Positions 43,165 to 49,427 of a stretch of DNA of 64,000 nucleotides are shown here, piece by piece. Each line of letters begins with the position of its first letter. Position 1 is the first letter of the stretch. The notes below the pieces were generated by a model, which was not told where the DNA came from, made no database searches, and was given only the letters and a program-made list of their open reading frames with translations. This DNA comes from Phormidium tanganyikae FI6-MK23 (lineage in GTDB: Bacteria > Cyanobacteriota > Cyanobacteriia > Leptolyngbyales > Leptolyngbyaceae). The stretch spans positions 124,001-188,000 of the forward strand of contig JAHHHU010000008.1 in the NCBI GenBank assembly GCA_019359175.1, written 5' to 3'. A program made the position numbers and the translations under genes.

Positions 43165-43869
43165 CTACAATCCGGCAAACCATTCGTAACCCTGATCTTC
43201 CCAATAGCCCCGCGATCGACCTAATTTACTTACCAGCGTAATTCGCGTAACCCACTTGCTCTGCTTGTATCCCAGCTTGACCGAAGAAGCTAATCGCAAC
43301 GGCGCACCATTTTCGATCGAGATTGCCTCGCCATTTTTCTGATACGCCATCAAAGTCTGAGGATGAAGGCACGATCGCAAATCCCAACTTTCCAAATAGC
43401 GATCGGCTGACTCGAAATAAGCGTATTGAACGCCCGGTTTTGGTTGTGCCAGTTGGATCAAATCCCGTAACCGAACGCCGCCCCACTGTACGATCGCTGC
43501 CCATCCTTCCACACAGACATGGCGAATGATCATCGAAGTCAGCGGCAATTTGTAAAGCTCGTTCAGGCTCAACGATAAAGGCTGATTGACCTCGCCATCA
43601 ATGATTAATCGAAATTTCGCCGGATCAATCACTGGGGTAAATCCAAACGTATTGACGATCAATTGATTTGGCTCGATTTGGCTTGCGGCAAATTCAGGCA
43701 CAGGAGTTTGAGGCTTAAATAACAGCTCCTCAACGCTTTGATTAAGGGGTTCTGTGACTGTACCCACCACATCCCCAAAAATTGGGAGACCACAGCCGCC
43801 CAAGATTAATCCTGAACTTGAAACGCCAGCAATTTTGAGAAAATCACGCCGCGAAAAATTCTGCATCAC
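43165..43869 (-). CDS. Molybdopterin-dependent oxidoreductase (sulfite-oxidase fold)
   Basis: A 234-residue protein with a twin-arginine-like leader (SRRDFLKIAGVSSSGLILGGCG), so it is exported folded. The sulfite-oxidase domain carries the Mo-ligand Cys in IIRHVCVEGWAAIVQWGGVRL, split by family as R-x-V-C-x-E-G. A lipobox-like GGC follows the Tat motif. With the cytochrome b gene 2 bp upstream it resembles MsrP/MsrQ-type or YedYZ-type electron-transfer pairs. Substrate unknown. Confidence 0.85.
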   Translation of the reverse strand: MMQNFSRRDFLKIAGVSSSGLILGGCGLPIFGDVVGTVTEPLNQSVEELLFKPQTPVPEFAASQIEPNQLIVNTFGFTPVIDPAKFRLIIDGEVNQPLSLSLNELYKLPLTSMIIRHVCVEGWAAIVQWGGVRLRDLIQLAQPKPGVQYAYFESADRYLESWDLRSCLHPQTLMAYQKNGEAISIENGAPLRLASSVKLGYKQSKWVTRITLVSKLGRSRGYWEDQGYEWFAGL

Positions 43870-43871
43870 CG

Positions 43872-44453
43872 TTACCAGAACATTGAATCGATCAATCGAG
43901 AGCCGCCGACTTTCAGCGCCAGAAAAGAATGTGCGATCGCGAATCCAATCACGGTCGGAACGCTAGAAAAATGCACAATTCTCAGCGCCTGCCAATCTCC
44001 AAACATCTCGACAATCCAAGGGAACTGCGCGGGTTTGTACATCCCGATTCCGCTGAGGATTGCGAGGAGGAGGATAGGAACGATCGCGGTATAAGCCACT
44101 CGATGCCAAGCGTAGTATTTTCGCTTCGGATTTTTCCCCGTCTGAATCGCTTTCACATCATTTGCACCGACAAATCGATGCTTCCAACGCCGCGTAACCA
44201 GCACATAAATTCCATACCAAAGCAAATTCAGCGAAAACAATCCCATTCCCGCGAAGTGCCAATCTCGCCCACCTGCCAACCAGCCGCCCAGTGTAAAGAT
44301 CGGCGGAATCGGAATTCCTGCTCTACCCCCAAACACCGGATTCGCATTGTAAATCTGCAATCCGCTGGTCAGCATGATAAACACACTCACCACATTAATC
44401 CAATGAAACGTTTTGGCAAGAATCGCCTGTTTCGGTAAAACCTTGAGTTCCAT
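43872..44453 (-). CDS. Cytochrome b561-like membrane partner of the molybdopterin enzyme
   Basis: About 193 residues, four helices. ATG 44453 (MELKVLPKQAILAKTFHWIN) is preferred to an in-frame start at 44474. Candidate haem His residues are in TFHWINVVSVFIM, WHFAGMGLFSLNLLW, YAWHRVAYTAI and RIVHFSSVPTVIGFAIAHSF. Its stop is 2 bp from the molybdopterin gene, so it probably anchors or supplies electrons to that enzyme from the quinone pool. Confidence 0.8.
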   Translation of the reverse strand: MELKVLPKQAILAKTFHWINVVSVFIMLTSGLQIYNANPVFGGRAGIPIPPIFTLGGWLAGGRDWHFAGMGLFSLNLLWYGIYVLVTRRWKHRFVGANDVKAIQTGKNPKRKYYAWHRVAYTAIVPILLLAILSGIGMYKPAQFPWIVEMFGDWQALRIVHFSSVPTVIGFAIAHSFLALKVGGSRLIDSMFW

Positions 44454-44499
44454 TAGCGCTTCACAAAAGATCACGTATTGCTAATGTGACACAAAAAAA

Positions 44500-44529
44500 C
44501 CCGGAGTCGATCGATAAATCAACTCCGGG
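44500..44529 (-). terminator. Rho-independent terminator of the EF-G-like gene
   Basis: CCCGGAGT (44500-44507) pairs perfectly with ACTCCGGG (44522-44529). On the minus strand the stem is followed directly by TTTTTTT, a textbook terminator 24 bp after the stop at 44554. Confidence 0.88.
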
Positions 44530-44553: not shown

Positions 44554-46581
44554 CTAACGTTTACCGTTACTGTGTCCAGTTGTCACTAAAAGCCGTTCTG
44601 CTAACTTGTCGGGGACTTCCTGCAAATGATCGAATTCACATTGGAAAAAGCCGACTCCCATTGTTTGCGATCGTAGTTCCACGATCAAATCGTGCATCTC
44701 AGCTTGCGGCAACAAGACAATCACATCATCCCAACCCATCCAACCTGATTTCGCATCGTAGCCCAGCACTTGACCGCGCCGACCGCTGGATAAACGCAAC
44801 ACTTTCGAGGTGAAATCAGATGGAACGGAGACTGTCACTTGTACGATCGGTTCTAACAACACAGATTCGCATTTCGCCATGCCTTCCTGCATTGCAATTC
44901 GCGCTGCTTGTCTAAAGGCTTGCTCCGAACTATCAACACTGTGATAAGAACCATTCGTTAAGGTCACTGAAACATCAACCACGGGGAATCCAAGCGGGCC
45001 GATCGAGAGATACTCTCGCACACCCATTTCGACGCCGGGAATGTACTGTTTGGGAACCACGCCGCCAACAATCTTTTCACCAAATTGGAAGCCATCCCCA
45101 CGCGACCCAGGTTGAATGCTGAGATAAACATCTCCGAACTGCCCGTGTCCGCCTGTTTGATGTTTGTAGCGTCCGTGTGAACTGGTGGATTTGCGAACCG
45201 TTTCTTTGTAGGGAACTTGTGGAAGATGCGTGGACATCGGTAGATTGTATTTTCGACGCAATCGATCGAGTGCAACTTGCAGATGAATTTCACCTTGTCC
45301 CCACAAGATAATCTCATGGGTATCGCCGTGTTGCTCCCAACAAATCCCACAGTCTTCTTCTAAAAGTTTCGCAAGTGTTCCAGTCAGTTTCACTTCATCA
45401 TTGCGTTTTTCTGCCTGAATTGCCATTGCGTAGACAGGTTTAATCTGTTCCGGTTTGCGAAGTGCACGGACTGGCTCGGTTGAAAGGGTCGCTCCAGTCT
45501 TGACTCCTTCCATCCGCGCAAGGGCAACAATTTCACCTGCTTGAGCAGAATTCACGCTTTGTTGCTGTTGACCCATCAGGCGATACATTCCACCAATGCG
45601 AACGCCATTTAAGGGCATGCCATCGGAGATCGTGCCTTGCCAAACCCGAACTAGAGAAAGCTTTCCGCCTTGCTGTGTATTGTAAGTTTTCAGAACTTGA
45701 GCAATTCCAGTGTTGCCTACTTTGATGCCGCGATACTCTGCGATCGTCTCCGGCTCTGGAATTTCCCGCAGCAGTGCTGAGAGTAAAGGACGAACGCCAA
45801 AATCTCGATCGGCACAGCCAAAGAACACAGGCACAATTAAATCCGCGCCCAGTTCCATCTTCAGATCTTGCAGAATCTCATCTTCAGGCGGTTCAATTTC
45901 TTCGAGTAGTTCTTCTAATAGATGATCATCCCAATTCGCCAGCGTTTCGAGCATTTCCATTCGCGCGAGCTGCTCTTGATCTTTTAGCTCTGCGGGGAAC
46001 GGAACCGGATCAGCAGGCGCACCGGGATGATAGTGATAAGCCTGTTCGGTCACTAGATCAATAAATCCGGTGAGCGATTCGCCACGCCCGATCGGATATT
46101 GATGCGGCACGAGCGGGCGACTCGACACGGTTTTCAGCGCGTGTAGCACTTCCATAAAGTCCACATCGGCGCGATCCATTTTGTTGAGAAAGACTAGATG
46201 CGGAATTTCCCAATCGTCTAAAAATTTGAACAATGGCGATAGAGTCAGAACACGGTCGACTAAAGGTTCCGTCACCACGACAACCGCATCGACCCCGATC
46301 AGCGCATTTAGTGTTTCTTGCGCGAACTCTACAGAACCGGGACAGTCGAGAAACGTAAACCGCACATCTTCGTAGAGCGTGTGAGCAGTGTTAAGTTCAA
46401 CGGTCATTTGGCGATCGCGGGCTTCTGGGCTACTGTCTCCGACCGTATTTTTGTCTTGCACTGTGCCTTTGCGAGAAACCGCATTTGTGACCCAAAGCAA
46501 GCTTTCGAGTAAGGTCGTTTTACCGCTGAGGTAAGGGCCCACGATCGCCACGCTTCGGATGCCGATTGAATTACTTTTCAT
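44554..46581 (-). CDS. EF-G-like translational GTPase with a non-standard G3 motif
   Basis: A 675-residue protein with the EF-G domain order. G1 is GPYLSGKTT (15-23) and G4 is NKMD (133-136). G3 reads DCPGSVEF (79-86): the catalytic His of DxPGHxDF is Ser83. Domains II to V follow, including EVPYKETVRK-like and RGQVLGYDAKSGW segments. It belongs with EF-G2/FusA-like paralogues, not canonical FusA. No ribosomal protein genes adjoin it, as they would for fusA. Role unknown. Confidence 0.85.
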   Translation of the reverse strand: MKSNSIGIRSVAIVGPYLSGKTTLLESLLWVTNAVSRKGTVQDKNTVGDSSPEARDRQMTVELNTAHTLYEDVRFTFLDCPGSVEFAQETLNALIGVDAVVVVTEPLVDRVLTLSPLFKFLDDWEIPHLVFLNKMDRADVDFMEVLHALKTVSSRPLVPHQYPIGRGESLTGFIDLVTEQAYHYHPGAPADPVPFPAELKDQEQLARMEMLETLANWDDHLLEELLEEIEPPEDEILQDLKMELGADLIVPVFFGCADRDFGVRPLLSALLREIPEPETIAEYRGIKVGNTGIAQVLKTYNTQQGGKLSLVRVWQGTISDGMPLNGVRIGGMYRLMGQQQQSVNSAQAGEIVALARMEGVKTGATLSTEPVRALRKPEQIKPVYAMAIQAEKRNDEVKLTGTLAKLLEEDCGICWEQHGDTHEIILWGQGEIHLQVALDRLRRKYNLPMSTHLPQVPYKETVRKSTSSHGRYKHQTGGHGQFGDVYLSIQPGSRGDGFQFGEKIVGGVVPKQYIPGVEMGVREYLSIGPLGFPVVDVSVTLTNGSYHSVDSSEQAFRQAARIAMQEGMAKCESVLLEPIVQVTVSVPSDFTSKVLRLSSGRRGQVLGYDAKSGWMGWDDVIVLLPQAEMHDLIVELRSQTMGVGFFQCEFDHLQEVPDKLAERLLVTTGHSNGKR

Positions 46582-46806
46582 ACCATTCTCCTAGATATAG
46601 AGATAGCAATCTTTCCTCGATTCAAAATATAGAAATTCAACCCAACTCTTTGCAATTGCAGAGCGCAAAGATCAAGCAGTTCCTACTAATAAATCGAAGT
46701 TATTCGTTCTTGTTGAAATCGAAGATTGCTCAACCTTGAGGATCGATAACATTGGATTATCAAACTGTTTTGATTACCTGAATCAAAACCTCAGATTGTC
46801 TTAACA

Positions 46807-46838
46807 AAAAAGGGGCGCGATTGAACGCACCCCTTTTT
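46807..46838 (-). terminator. Terminator of hpf/lrtA
   Basis: AAAAAGGGG (46807-46815) pairs with CCCCTTTTT (46830-46838), with an inner GCG/CGC pair. It lies 3 bp beyond the minus-strand stop and reads as a stem followed by T-rich sequence. Confidence 0.85.
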
Positions 46839-46840
46839 GA

Positions 46841-47497
46841 TTATCTTACGAGCGATTCCACAGTATCACTCGTTGAATGTTTGCCATTCCCGTTTTGATG
46901 GGTTTGGTGTCCATTTTGGTCGTGAGTGTGTCCGTTGCCGTTACGCGGCTGAATTACTCCAAATCCGCTGTGATTGCGCTCGTAGGCAACGTTAATTTCG
47001 CCCGTATCGACGTTGCGGAACATATAGAAATCGTGTCCCACTAGTTCAAGCTGTTCGATCGCTTGATCCACCGTCATCGGCGGCATCGAGAAATACTTAG
47101 TGCGAACCACCTGCGCGGGAAGTTCTGGTTCTCGATCGAGATTCAAATCTTCAATTAGCGGCTGGTCGCCCAAGTTTTCTGTGGTTTTGTCATACCGATG
47201 TTGCGATCGTTTTTCTTTGTATTTTCGCAGTCGTCGGGCAATTTTGTCCGCAACTAAATCGATACTCGCGTATAGATTTTCGCTCCCTTCCTCTGCTCGA
47301 ACAACAGTTCCATTTGCGTAAATCGTAACTTCAGCAATTTGCTTCACGATACGGGGGTTGCGGCTAACAGAGAGATGAACATCGACTTCGGTCGTTAGGG
47401 TTTGATAATGGCTTACCGCTTTTTCGATTTTCTGGTGAACGTATTCTCGAATGGCATCCGTGACTTCAATGTTCTTTCCCTGGATCACGAGCTTCAT
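46841..47497 (-). CDS. hpf: Ribosome hibernation promoting factor, long form (LrtA)
   Basis: A 218-residue long-form HPF. The N-terminal S30AE domain ([46 protein letters not shown]) is followed by a linker and the dimerisation domain ([42 protein letters not shown]). It pairs 70S ribosomes in the dark or in starvation. In cyanobacteria it is the light-repressed transcript lrtA. A strong GGAGGAG lies about 9 bases upstream of ATG. The His/Asn/Gly-rich tail is low-complexity. Confidence 0.92.
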
Positions 47498-48335: not shown

Positions 48336-49427
48336 ATGGATAGATCTCCTCGTCGTGGAAGACATAAGATTTTCATTGGTATGTCTCCAGGTGTTGGCAA
48401 GACATACCAGATGTTAGAAGAAGGGCATCGGTTGAAAAAAGAAGGGGTGGATGTAGTAATCGGACTGCTCGAAACTCACAATCGGCAAGAAACGATTGAA
48501 CAAGCGATCGGCTTAGAACTGTGATTCCGCGTAAATCGATCGATTGTTCTGGTGTGACGCTAACCGAAATGGATACCGAAGCTGTAATCGCTCGTCAGCC
48601 TCAGCTTGCCTTAGTCGATGAACTCGCTTATACGAATGTTCCAGGCTGCGAGCATGAAAAACGCTACCAAGATGTGGAACTAATCTTAGCGGCTGGAATT
48701 GATGTGTTTTCAACCGTGAACATTCAGCATTTAGAAAGCTTGAATGATTTAGTAGCTCGGATCACAGGAAGCGAATCCCCGATCGACTATTATAGAACAA
48801 GCAGATGAAGTTGTGGTTGTCGATGTGACTCCTGAGACGCTAGAGGAGCGCTTGAGAGATGGTAAGATCTATGCGCCTGAGAAGATCGATCAATCTCTGC
48901 AACACTTCTTTCAGCGTCGTAACTTGATTGCTCTGAGAGAACTTGCTTTGTGAGAAATTGCCGACAACGTTGAGGAAGATGCCCGTGGGAATAGTATTTC
49001 AGATACCAATGCACCTTACTGCAACATTCATGAACGAGTGTTAGTCTGCGTCTCGACCTATCCCAATTCAATGCAATTACTCCGACGGGGAGCGCGAATC
49101 TCAAACTATATGCGTGCCCCGCTCTATTGTGTGTTCGTCAACGATCCGGATCGGTTTCTCAGCAAAGCAGAAAGCTTACAAATTGAAACTTGCGAAAAGC
49201 TTTGTCAAGAATTCGATGAGCAGTTCATTCGAGCCTCAGATCTAAACATTGCAAGAGCCATTTCTGAGGTGGCGAAACAGTATCGCATCACTCAAATTGT
49301 GATTGGAGAAAGTCAGCGATCGCATTGGAAAACCTTGCTTAAAGGATCGCTCACGCAGCAATTGTTAAAGTTACTGAAAAACATCGATGTTCATATCATT
49401 GCAACTGAGGAAAAATCTCGATTATGA
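48336..49427 (+). pseudogene. kdpD: KdpD N-terminal sensor/USP protein, disrupted by three lesions
   Basis: The frames together encode the KdpD N-terminal domain plus universal-stress domain, the short form found in cyanobacteria. The start is MDRSPRRGRHKIFIGMSPGV with Walker A GVGKT. A base loss near 48522 shifts the frame before IPRKSIDCSGVTLTEMD. A second shift near 48790 precedes EQADEVVVVDVTPETLEERL. An in-frame TGA at 48951-48953 (probably from CGA) interrupts ALRELAL-(R)-EIADNVEED. The USP part then continues to 49427. No kdpFABC genes are in the window. Confidence 0.88.

Follow-up and report, generated by a model that had tools for sequence, protein, structure and literature searches.

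Can an EF-G-like protein that has lost residues of its GTPase centre still act on the ribosome? This question is raised by a gene at positions 44554-46581 of a 64,000-nucleotide stretch of the Phormidium tanganyikae FI6-MK23 genome (the window). A first-pass annotation of this DNA, made from its letters, had described the product as an EF-G-like GTPase without the catalytic histidine. Comparison with related proteins indicates that the protein is a member of the EFG II subfamily in which two residues of the EF-G GTPase centre have been lost while domain IV has been kept. This combination suggests that ribosomes may be moved or cleared at little energy cost.

Assignment to the EFG II subfamily

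The open reading frame fills exactly these positions on the minus strand; according to the list of open reading frames and the translation, it opens with ATG and encodes 675 amino acids. EF-G domains I to V were all detected in the product with Pfam. The NCBIfam model NF009379 gave 1045.3 bits, well over its curated cut-off of 513, which is a loose one, since many canonical EF-Gs of related genomes score 513-548 bits. With the canonical EF-G model TIGR00484 the protein reached 412.7 bits (cut-off 659.4), and with the Bacteroides EF-G2 model NF058620 342.7 bits (cut-off 1000), so that it belongs to neither. Among the open reading frames of the window, none of rpsL, rpsG and tuf adjoins the gene.

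The EFG II subfamily was defined by Margus et al. 2011 and includes a branch common to alpha-proteobacteria and Cyanobacteria with the G2 motif R/HxMS/GV (PMC3150367). The G2 motif of the window protein, RQMTV, comes near to this motif, with Thr where Ser or Gly is expected. At the 13 positions for which Tables 1 and 2 of that paper give EFG II-typical residues, 11 residues of the window protein fit, the two that depart being Thr60 and His474; the positions were mapped by hand from our alignment, in which column 299 is off by one, and some of the seven Table 2 residues are common in EFG I too. In a tree of 31 rows, the cyanobacterial EFG-like rows formed one group (support 98/99). A split with support 100/100 separated the cyanobacterial, Sphingobium and rhizobial rows from all histidine-bearing EF-Gs, and the protein of Ilyobacter (Fusobacteriota), which carries Tyr at G3, fell between the two sides. 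The tree was rooted at its midpoint, and long branches were flagged for Sphingobium, Ilyobacter and Paraburkholderia, which makes their placement less sure. Score, tree, diagnostic positions and type of G2 motif identify the window protein as an EF-G paralogue of EFG II, branch of alpha-proteobacteria and Cyanobacteria. Within this already known kind the gene is ordinary; nothing was found that sets it apart from the branch.

Loss of the switch-II histidine and the P-loop aspartate

The G3 motif reads DCPGSVEF, as annotated, and Ser83 sits at the position of the switch-II histidine of EF-G (DTPGH); the canonical histidine is absent. A degenerate DNA pattern for this motif (serine as TCN only) had one match in the whole genome, at the window gene. 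To judge from a family alignment of G3, a check that the annotation had proposed, serine is a family-wide trait. It was found in 42/42 cyanobacterial orthologue rows covering the motif, namely the window protein and 41 of the 44 orthologous loci fetched; the remaining three are fragments that stop short of G3. Of the named loci, 79/80 have serine and the exception, Mastigocoleus testarum, has Asn; these loci are the best 80 of 546, which favours nearer relatives, and their genomes are partly the same as those of the fetched loci. The other EF-G genes fetched from the same genomes all read DTPGHVDF (23/23). With serine in every orthologue and histidine in every other EF-G, Ser83 is more than chance or a sequencing slip.

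A second residue is lost in the P-loop. The aspartate of the EF-G motif AHIDAGKT was observed in 24/24 other EF-G rows (23 cyanobacterial and one from Methylobacterium) and in 0/40 EFG-like rows covering the position, which carry Leu (33 rows), Ser (4) or Gln, Ala and Gly (one each). In EF-Tu-type GTPases this aspartate is part of the ribosome-activated catalytic site and is also involved in the binding of a monovalent cation. The annotation of G1 and G4 as intact is therefore only partly right: G4 (NKMD) and the generic P-loop pattern GxxxxGK[ST] are present, but Leu18 takes the place of the EF-G aspartate. With the generic GTP-binding motifs remaining, GTP binding is still likely, as had been supposed. 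The P-loop aspartate and the switch-II histidine are thus both lost, and both losses are kept across the cyanobacteria. An AlphaFold2 model from 28 rows had a mean predicted local distance difference test score of 62.6, with values below 50 in parts of the P-loop, in parts of switch I and in most of domain IV; it was kept out of considerations of active-site geometry and served only for the titles of PDB entries.

Both residues are also absent from all EFG II proteins sampled in Thermus, mycobacteria, Bacteroides, Fusobacteria and alpha-proteobacteria, with one to four proteins for each of these five non-cyanobacterial groups. The Ilyobacter protein (DTPGYFDF, GHGGSGKTT) was taken as EFG II from its G2 motif RSFSV, though it passed TIGR00484 (691 versus 659). 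TetM keeps both residues in its PDB sequence (DTPGHMDF and AHVDAGKTT). The G3 motif DxPG is called conserved in the EFG II paper (PMC3150367). A word search of the main text of that paper returned neither 'histidine' nor 'catalytic' (0 matches each); figures lay outside the search and 'His' was not searched.

Conservation of domain IV

The GTPase domain and domain IV have fared differently. Columns that are invariant in EF-G are kept by the majority of the EFG-like proteins in 22/25 cases in domain IV, compared to 35/78 in domain I, 8/18 in domain II, 13/21 in domain III and 10/21 in domain V, with domain limits that we set from Pfam. Domain IV is the best-kept domain in this alignment. His547 is present in 42/42 EFG-like rows, and the same column holds His in 24/24 other EF-Gs. 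We take it to be the domain IV histidine of EF-G to which an important role in tRNA movement is ascribed (PMC8446442). The G' subdomain has likewise retained its acidic stretch (Glu223 in 42/42 rows, Glu227 in 40/42).

Such conservation bears on the possibility that the paralogue is decaying and serves no positive function. Its divergent sequence and the altered G2 and G5 motifs would fit decay, as would its limited occurrence: with E <= 1e-150, a threshold chosen to leave out canonical EF-G, the gene was found in 63/244 genomes and 42/109 genera of a sample of the phylum, and 181/244 genomes had no match. However, 59 of the 63 matches are free of internal stops, mean column identity over 16 diverse rows is 74%, and the active-site changes and the domain IV residues are invariant. 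We consider decay very improbable.

Among 58 genomes around that of the window, which is itself one of the 58, 43 have an NF009379 match of at least 870 bits, and two more carry a fragment at a contig end. In the phylum sample, the EF-G-like gene is not listed for six genomes (4.5-6 Mb) of one genus (g50, family f28), and the 63 carriers include no member of this genus. This absence is likely a loss in that lineage, since other members of the family carry the gene. Synechocystis sll0830 is presumably an orthologue of the window gene. It is listed as an EF-G with an antisense RNA in connection with iron deprivation data (PMC3516471), and it was about 1.6-fold up in an slr1037 mutant (PMC4057619).

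Rhizobial members with a shortened switch-I region

Three rhizobial members of the branch, all on plasmids, scored 861 (S. meliloti pSymB), 844 (R. phaseoli) and 858 bits (S. fredii) with NF009379. From the region of the P-loop lysine to the end of G3 they count 48 residues (3/3). The rows for the window, Sphingobium, Ilyobacter and Paraburkholderia have 67, so that all three rhizobial proteins are 19 residues short in the switch-I region. Their G3 motif is DVPGNNEA or DAPGPNEA, with Asn or Pro at the histidine position. Domains III to V are retained. We dropped the stronger claim that the whole effector loop is lost, because a possible counterpart of the switch-I threonine remains (LTEF or ITEF), and speak of 19 missing residues. 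The shortening suggests that normal GTP hydrolysis or GTPase control is dispensable in the alpha-proteobacterial and cyanobacterial branch.

Expected effect on GTP hydrolysis

The consequences of losing the histidine have been measured in E. coli EF-G. The H91A mutation slowed ribosome-stimulated GTP hydrolysis about 7-fold (202 per s in the wild type, 28 per s in the mutant) and cut the release of inorganic phosphate (Pi) from 28 per s to only 0.32 per s (Koripella et al. 2015, PMC4532990). H91Q hydrolysed GTP at 174 per s, like the wild type, with Pi release more than 20 times slower, and intrinsic hydrolysis, about 0.01 per s for E. coli EF-G, was unaltered in the H91 mutants (PMC4532990). 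The mutants reported there are A, E, Q and R, Ser not being among them, and the paper notes that H91A had earlier been reported to have no activity at all. With only a 7-fold slower hydrolysis in H91A, loss of the histidine alone is no proof of a dead GTPase. The exchange of His for Ser would, taken alone, predict a hampered but not surely a dead GTPase, and slow Pi release seems the safer prediction.

We then compared the window protein with relatives for which functional or structural data exist. Bacteroides thetaiotaomicron EF-G2 (BT2167; PDB 7uvp, 8dmf) shares the serine at G3 (DCPGSDDF), the lost P-loop aspartate (GSSGSGKTT) and the EF-G layout. It differs in belonging to another EFG II branch, in its own G2 motif YGYSV, which is the published Bacteroidetes EFG II motif (PMC3150367), and in a P-loop Gly where the window protein has Leu. 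The likeness is one of presumed way of working and not of membership in NF058620. Citing papers credit Bacteroides EF-G2 with translocation in which no GTP is hydrolysed (PMC12775393) and with making GTP-independent translation possible (PMC10294740); it is induced by carbon limitation (PMC6989115, PMC10994844). In the PDB, the chains of 7uvp and 8dmf are named tetracycline resistance protein TetQ, and the title of 8dmf is that of ribosome-bound B. thetaiotaomicron EF-G2.

Two further EFG II proteins have lost both His and Asp: Thermus thermophilus EF-G-2 (PDB 1wdt; DAPGYGDF, GHAGSGKTT) and Mycobacterium smegmatis EF-G2 (PDB 9k0z; DTPGYADF, GPSGGGKTT). Both differ from the window protein by Tyr at the histidine position; in the Thermus protein Gly stands in place of the P-loop Asp. 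The mycobacterial G2 motif, QQRSV in M. smegmatis and also in the M. tuberculosis protein, is unlike the RQMTV of the window. Canonical EF-G (EFG I, fusA) shares the domain layout and most of the invariant columns of domain IV but keeps the switch-II His and the P-loop Asp.

On this basis, the best explanation appears to be that the window protein is an EF-G paralogue that acts on the ribosome with a weak or absent GTPase, like Bacteroides EF-G2. We give this reading a probability of roughly one half, or slightly less. The protein would bind GTP and the ribosomal A site, and domain IV would move or clear the tRNA-mRNA. GTP hydrolysis on the ribosome and Pi release would be strongly slowed or absent, so that GTP would serve as a binding switch and not as fuel. 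As in the case of Bacteroides EF-G2, the protein would be a spare factor beside normal EF-G, plausibly one for times of energy shortage, such as in the dark or under starvation. Slow or differently triggered hydrolysis, which the annotation had thought possible from the missing histidine, thus stays the best guess, but it is not safe from this loss alone. What strengthens it is that the P-loop aspartate is lost too, that Bacteroides EF-G2 likewise carries Ser and that the switch-I region of the rhizobial members is shortened.

Several points weigh against a weak or absent GTPase. H91A E. coli EF-G still hydrolyses GTP, and H91Q does so almost undiminished. T. thermophilus EF-G-2, which has neither the His nor the Asp, is reported to be a ribosome-dependent GTPase (PMC3832671) and is also credited with a raised intrinsic GTPase (PMC3150367); on its activity without ribosomes the reports differ, being little in the former and raised in the latter. 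The two losses alone hence do not predict the outcome. Residue 60 of switch I is Thr in 21, Ser in 19 and Gly in 2 of the 42 cyanobacterial rows, so that Thr or Ser is retained in 40/42, and the possible Thr counterpart remains in 3/3 rhizobial members, which speaks for some use of GTP. These points would be explained if the window protein were an active ribosome-dependent GTPase with another active-site geometry, in which the water is positioned by Ser83 or by some other side chain and Pi release is altered; it would then be a slower or specialised translocase like T. thermophilus EF-G-2. On the other hand, M. smegmatis EF-G2 is reported to lack ribosome-dependent GTPase activity (PMC3832671), Bacteroides EF-G2, which shares the Ser, is described as GTPase-free (PMC12775393, PMC10294740), and the shortened switch-I region of the rhizobial members also speaks against such an enzyme. 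An active GTPase is a possibility that we take seriously, although we favour the weak or absent one.

Genomic context and the neighbouring hpf gene

The features read from the window are collected in Table 1.

Table 1. Position of the EF-G-like gene, its motifs and its flanking elements in the window
Feature	Positions	Strand	Basis
EF-G-like protein (EFG II, alpha/cyanobacterial branch), 675 aa	44554..46581	-	Open reading frame and translation, NF009379, Pfam
P-loop GPYLSGKTT, residues 15-23; Leu18 in place of EF-G Asp	46513..46539	-	Alignment
G2 / switch I RQMTV, residues 57-61 (EF-G: RGITI)	46399..46413	-	Alignment
G3 DCPGSVEF, residues 79-86; Ser83 codon 46333-46335	46324..46347	-	Translation, alignment, single genome match
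G4 NKMD, residues 133-136	46174..46185	-	Translation, alignment
G5 GCAD, residues 255-258 (EF-G: GSAF)	45808..45819	-	Alignment
Domain IV, residues 454-572, incl. His547 (codon 44941-44943)	44866..45222	-	PF03764, alignment; limits from Pfam
hpf/lrtA-type hibernation factor, upstream neighbour	46841..47497	-	PF02482, PF16321
Terminator-like hairpin and T-run directly after hpf, before the EF-G-like gene	46806..46833	-	Read from sequence
Terminator-like hairpin after the EF-G-like gene	44500..44529	-	13-bp stem, T7

The hibernation factor gene hpf, whose product matches both Pfam domains, ends 259 bp upstream of the EF-G-like gene on the same strand. This neighbourhood, correctly noted in the annotation, had led to the proposal of a link with ribosome recycling or dormancy. 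In its strongest form, the window protein would be no translocase but a parking, protection or recycling factor that stays bound without GTP hydrolysis and works with hpf in dormancy; missing hydrolysis would indeed be expected to lengthen its residence on the ribosome. The arrangement is, however, poorly conserved, which the annotation itself had named as counter-evidence. On the same strand near the EF-G-like gene, hpf was found in 7/7 congeners and in four further genomes belonging to this family, which makes 11/44 relative loci, or 10/38 when loci with less than 2 kb upstream are dropped. It was nearby in only 3/80 named loci, and all three are apparently genomes already counted among the relative loci.

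The two genes are also separated by a terminator-like hairpin, GGGGTGCG-loop-CGCGCCCC followed by T6, which folds in the window and in 7/7 genus relatives (8/8 genus members) despite changed letters. At loci L095 and L103 the hairpin present has no T-run, and at L093, where the anchor may be misplaced, no hairpin was seen. The hairpin argument is weakened by an automatic scan, in which terminator-like sites were no more frequent than chance (4 found versus 3.9 by chance) and the hairpin after hpf was not among them; promoter-like sites (3 found versus 4.3 expected) were not above chance either. Low conservation and the intervening hairpin led us to reject an operon or special link with hpf, and the best-kept part of the protein, domain IV, is the one needed for translocation. 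A parking factor thus seems unlikely. With hairpins on both sides, the EF-G-like gene is probably its own transcription unit and hpf just a neighbour, the adjacency being a local trait. Read-through from hpf or shared regulation may nevertheless occur.

A divergent upstream gene for a TPR protein accompanies the EF-G-like gene more often than hpf does, which also speaks against the parking factor. This TPR gene was found in 64/124 loci, many of them Nostocales by name; some genomes are counted twice among the 124, and 3 of the 64 matches have only 28-30% identity. It was not seen in the loci of the genus or among the window's open reading frames adjoining the EF-G-like gene. We drew no function from this gene as a conserved partner.

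Downstream, at 43165-44474 on the minus strand, Pfam identifies a pair of genes for a cytochrome b561-type membrane protein and a protein with a molybdopterin oxidoreductase domain. The pair adjoins the EF-G-like gene in several congeners, but lies behind the terminator-like hairpin. Two short neighbouring open reading frames at 48521-49427 on the plus strand are possibly a broken gene; we take them to resemble pieces of a KdpD-type sensor.

Search for a normal EF-G in the source genome

Members of the EFG II branch would be expected to have another EF-G beside them in the genome. Profile searches of the source assembly found no EF-G over the TIGR00484 cut-off and no EF-Tu over its cut-off, while in 7/7 other members of the genus EF-G and EF-Tu are both present, and the EF-G-like protein has a normal EF-G beside it. 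We considered a missing canonical EF-G as a biological surprise and rejected it, as EF-Tu is missing too and one contig breaks off in the relevant region. This contig (C24, 46,866 bp) can be aligned with a congener's str-operon region as far as base 46,864, which lies inside rpsL, and ends two bases further on. The missing fusA and tuf genes are thus explained by an assembly break, though the source genome is rated 96.3% complete. A search for rpsG was empty and uninformative, its control having missed Synechococcus elongatus. The source organism surely has a normal EF-G, as we infer from these data.

Implications for the family

The debate on whether EF-G must hydrolyse GTP to drive the ribosome forward continues (PMC12775393). 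Proteins that have lost the trigger residues, in rhizobia together with part of the switch-I region, and have conserved domain IV are natural test cases for this debate. We tentatively extend our reading to the whole branch: the EFG II proteins of alpha-proteobacteria and Cyanobacteria could be a widespread class of paralogues that gave up ribosome-triggered hydrolysis stepwise, first Asp and His in cyanobacteria and then 19 switch-I residues in rhizobia, and that need only binding energy to translocate or clear ribosomes. Although this extension is less likely than not, GTP-free translation would, if it is true, no longer be confined to gut Bacteroides but also occur in phototrophs in the dark and in nodule bacteria. 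If proteins of the window type lack hydrolysis, gut bacteria would not be alone in low-cost translation; if they prove to be active GTPases, the histidine would be dispensable in nature. The double loss and the short rhizobial switch-I region make the GTPase question directly testable, and it is here that the interest of these proteins lies.

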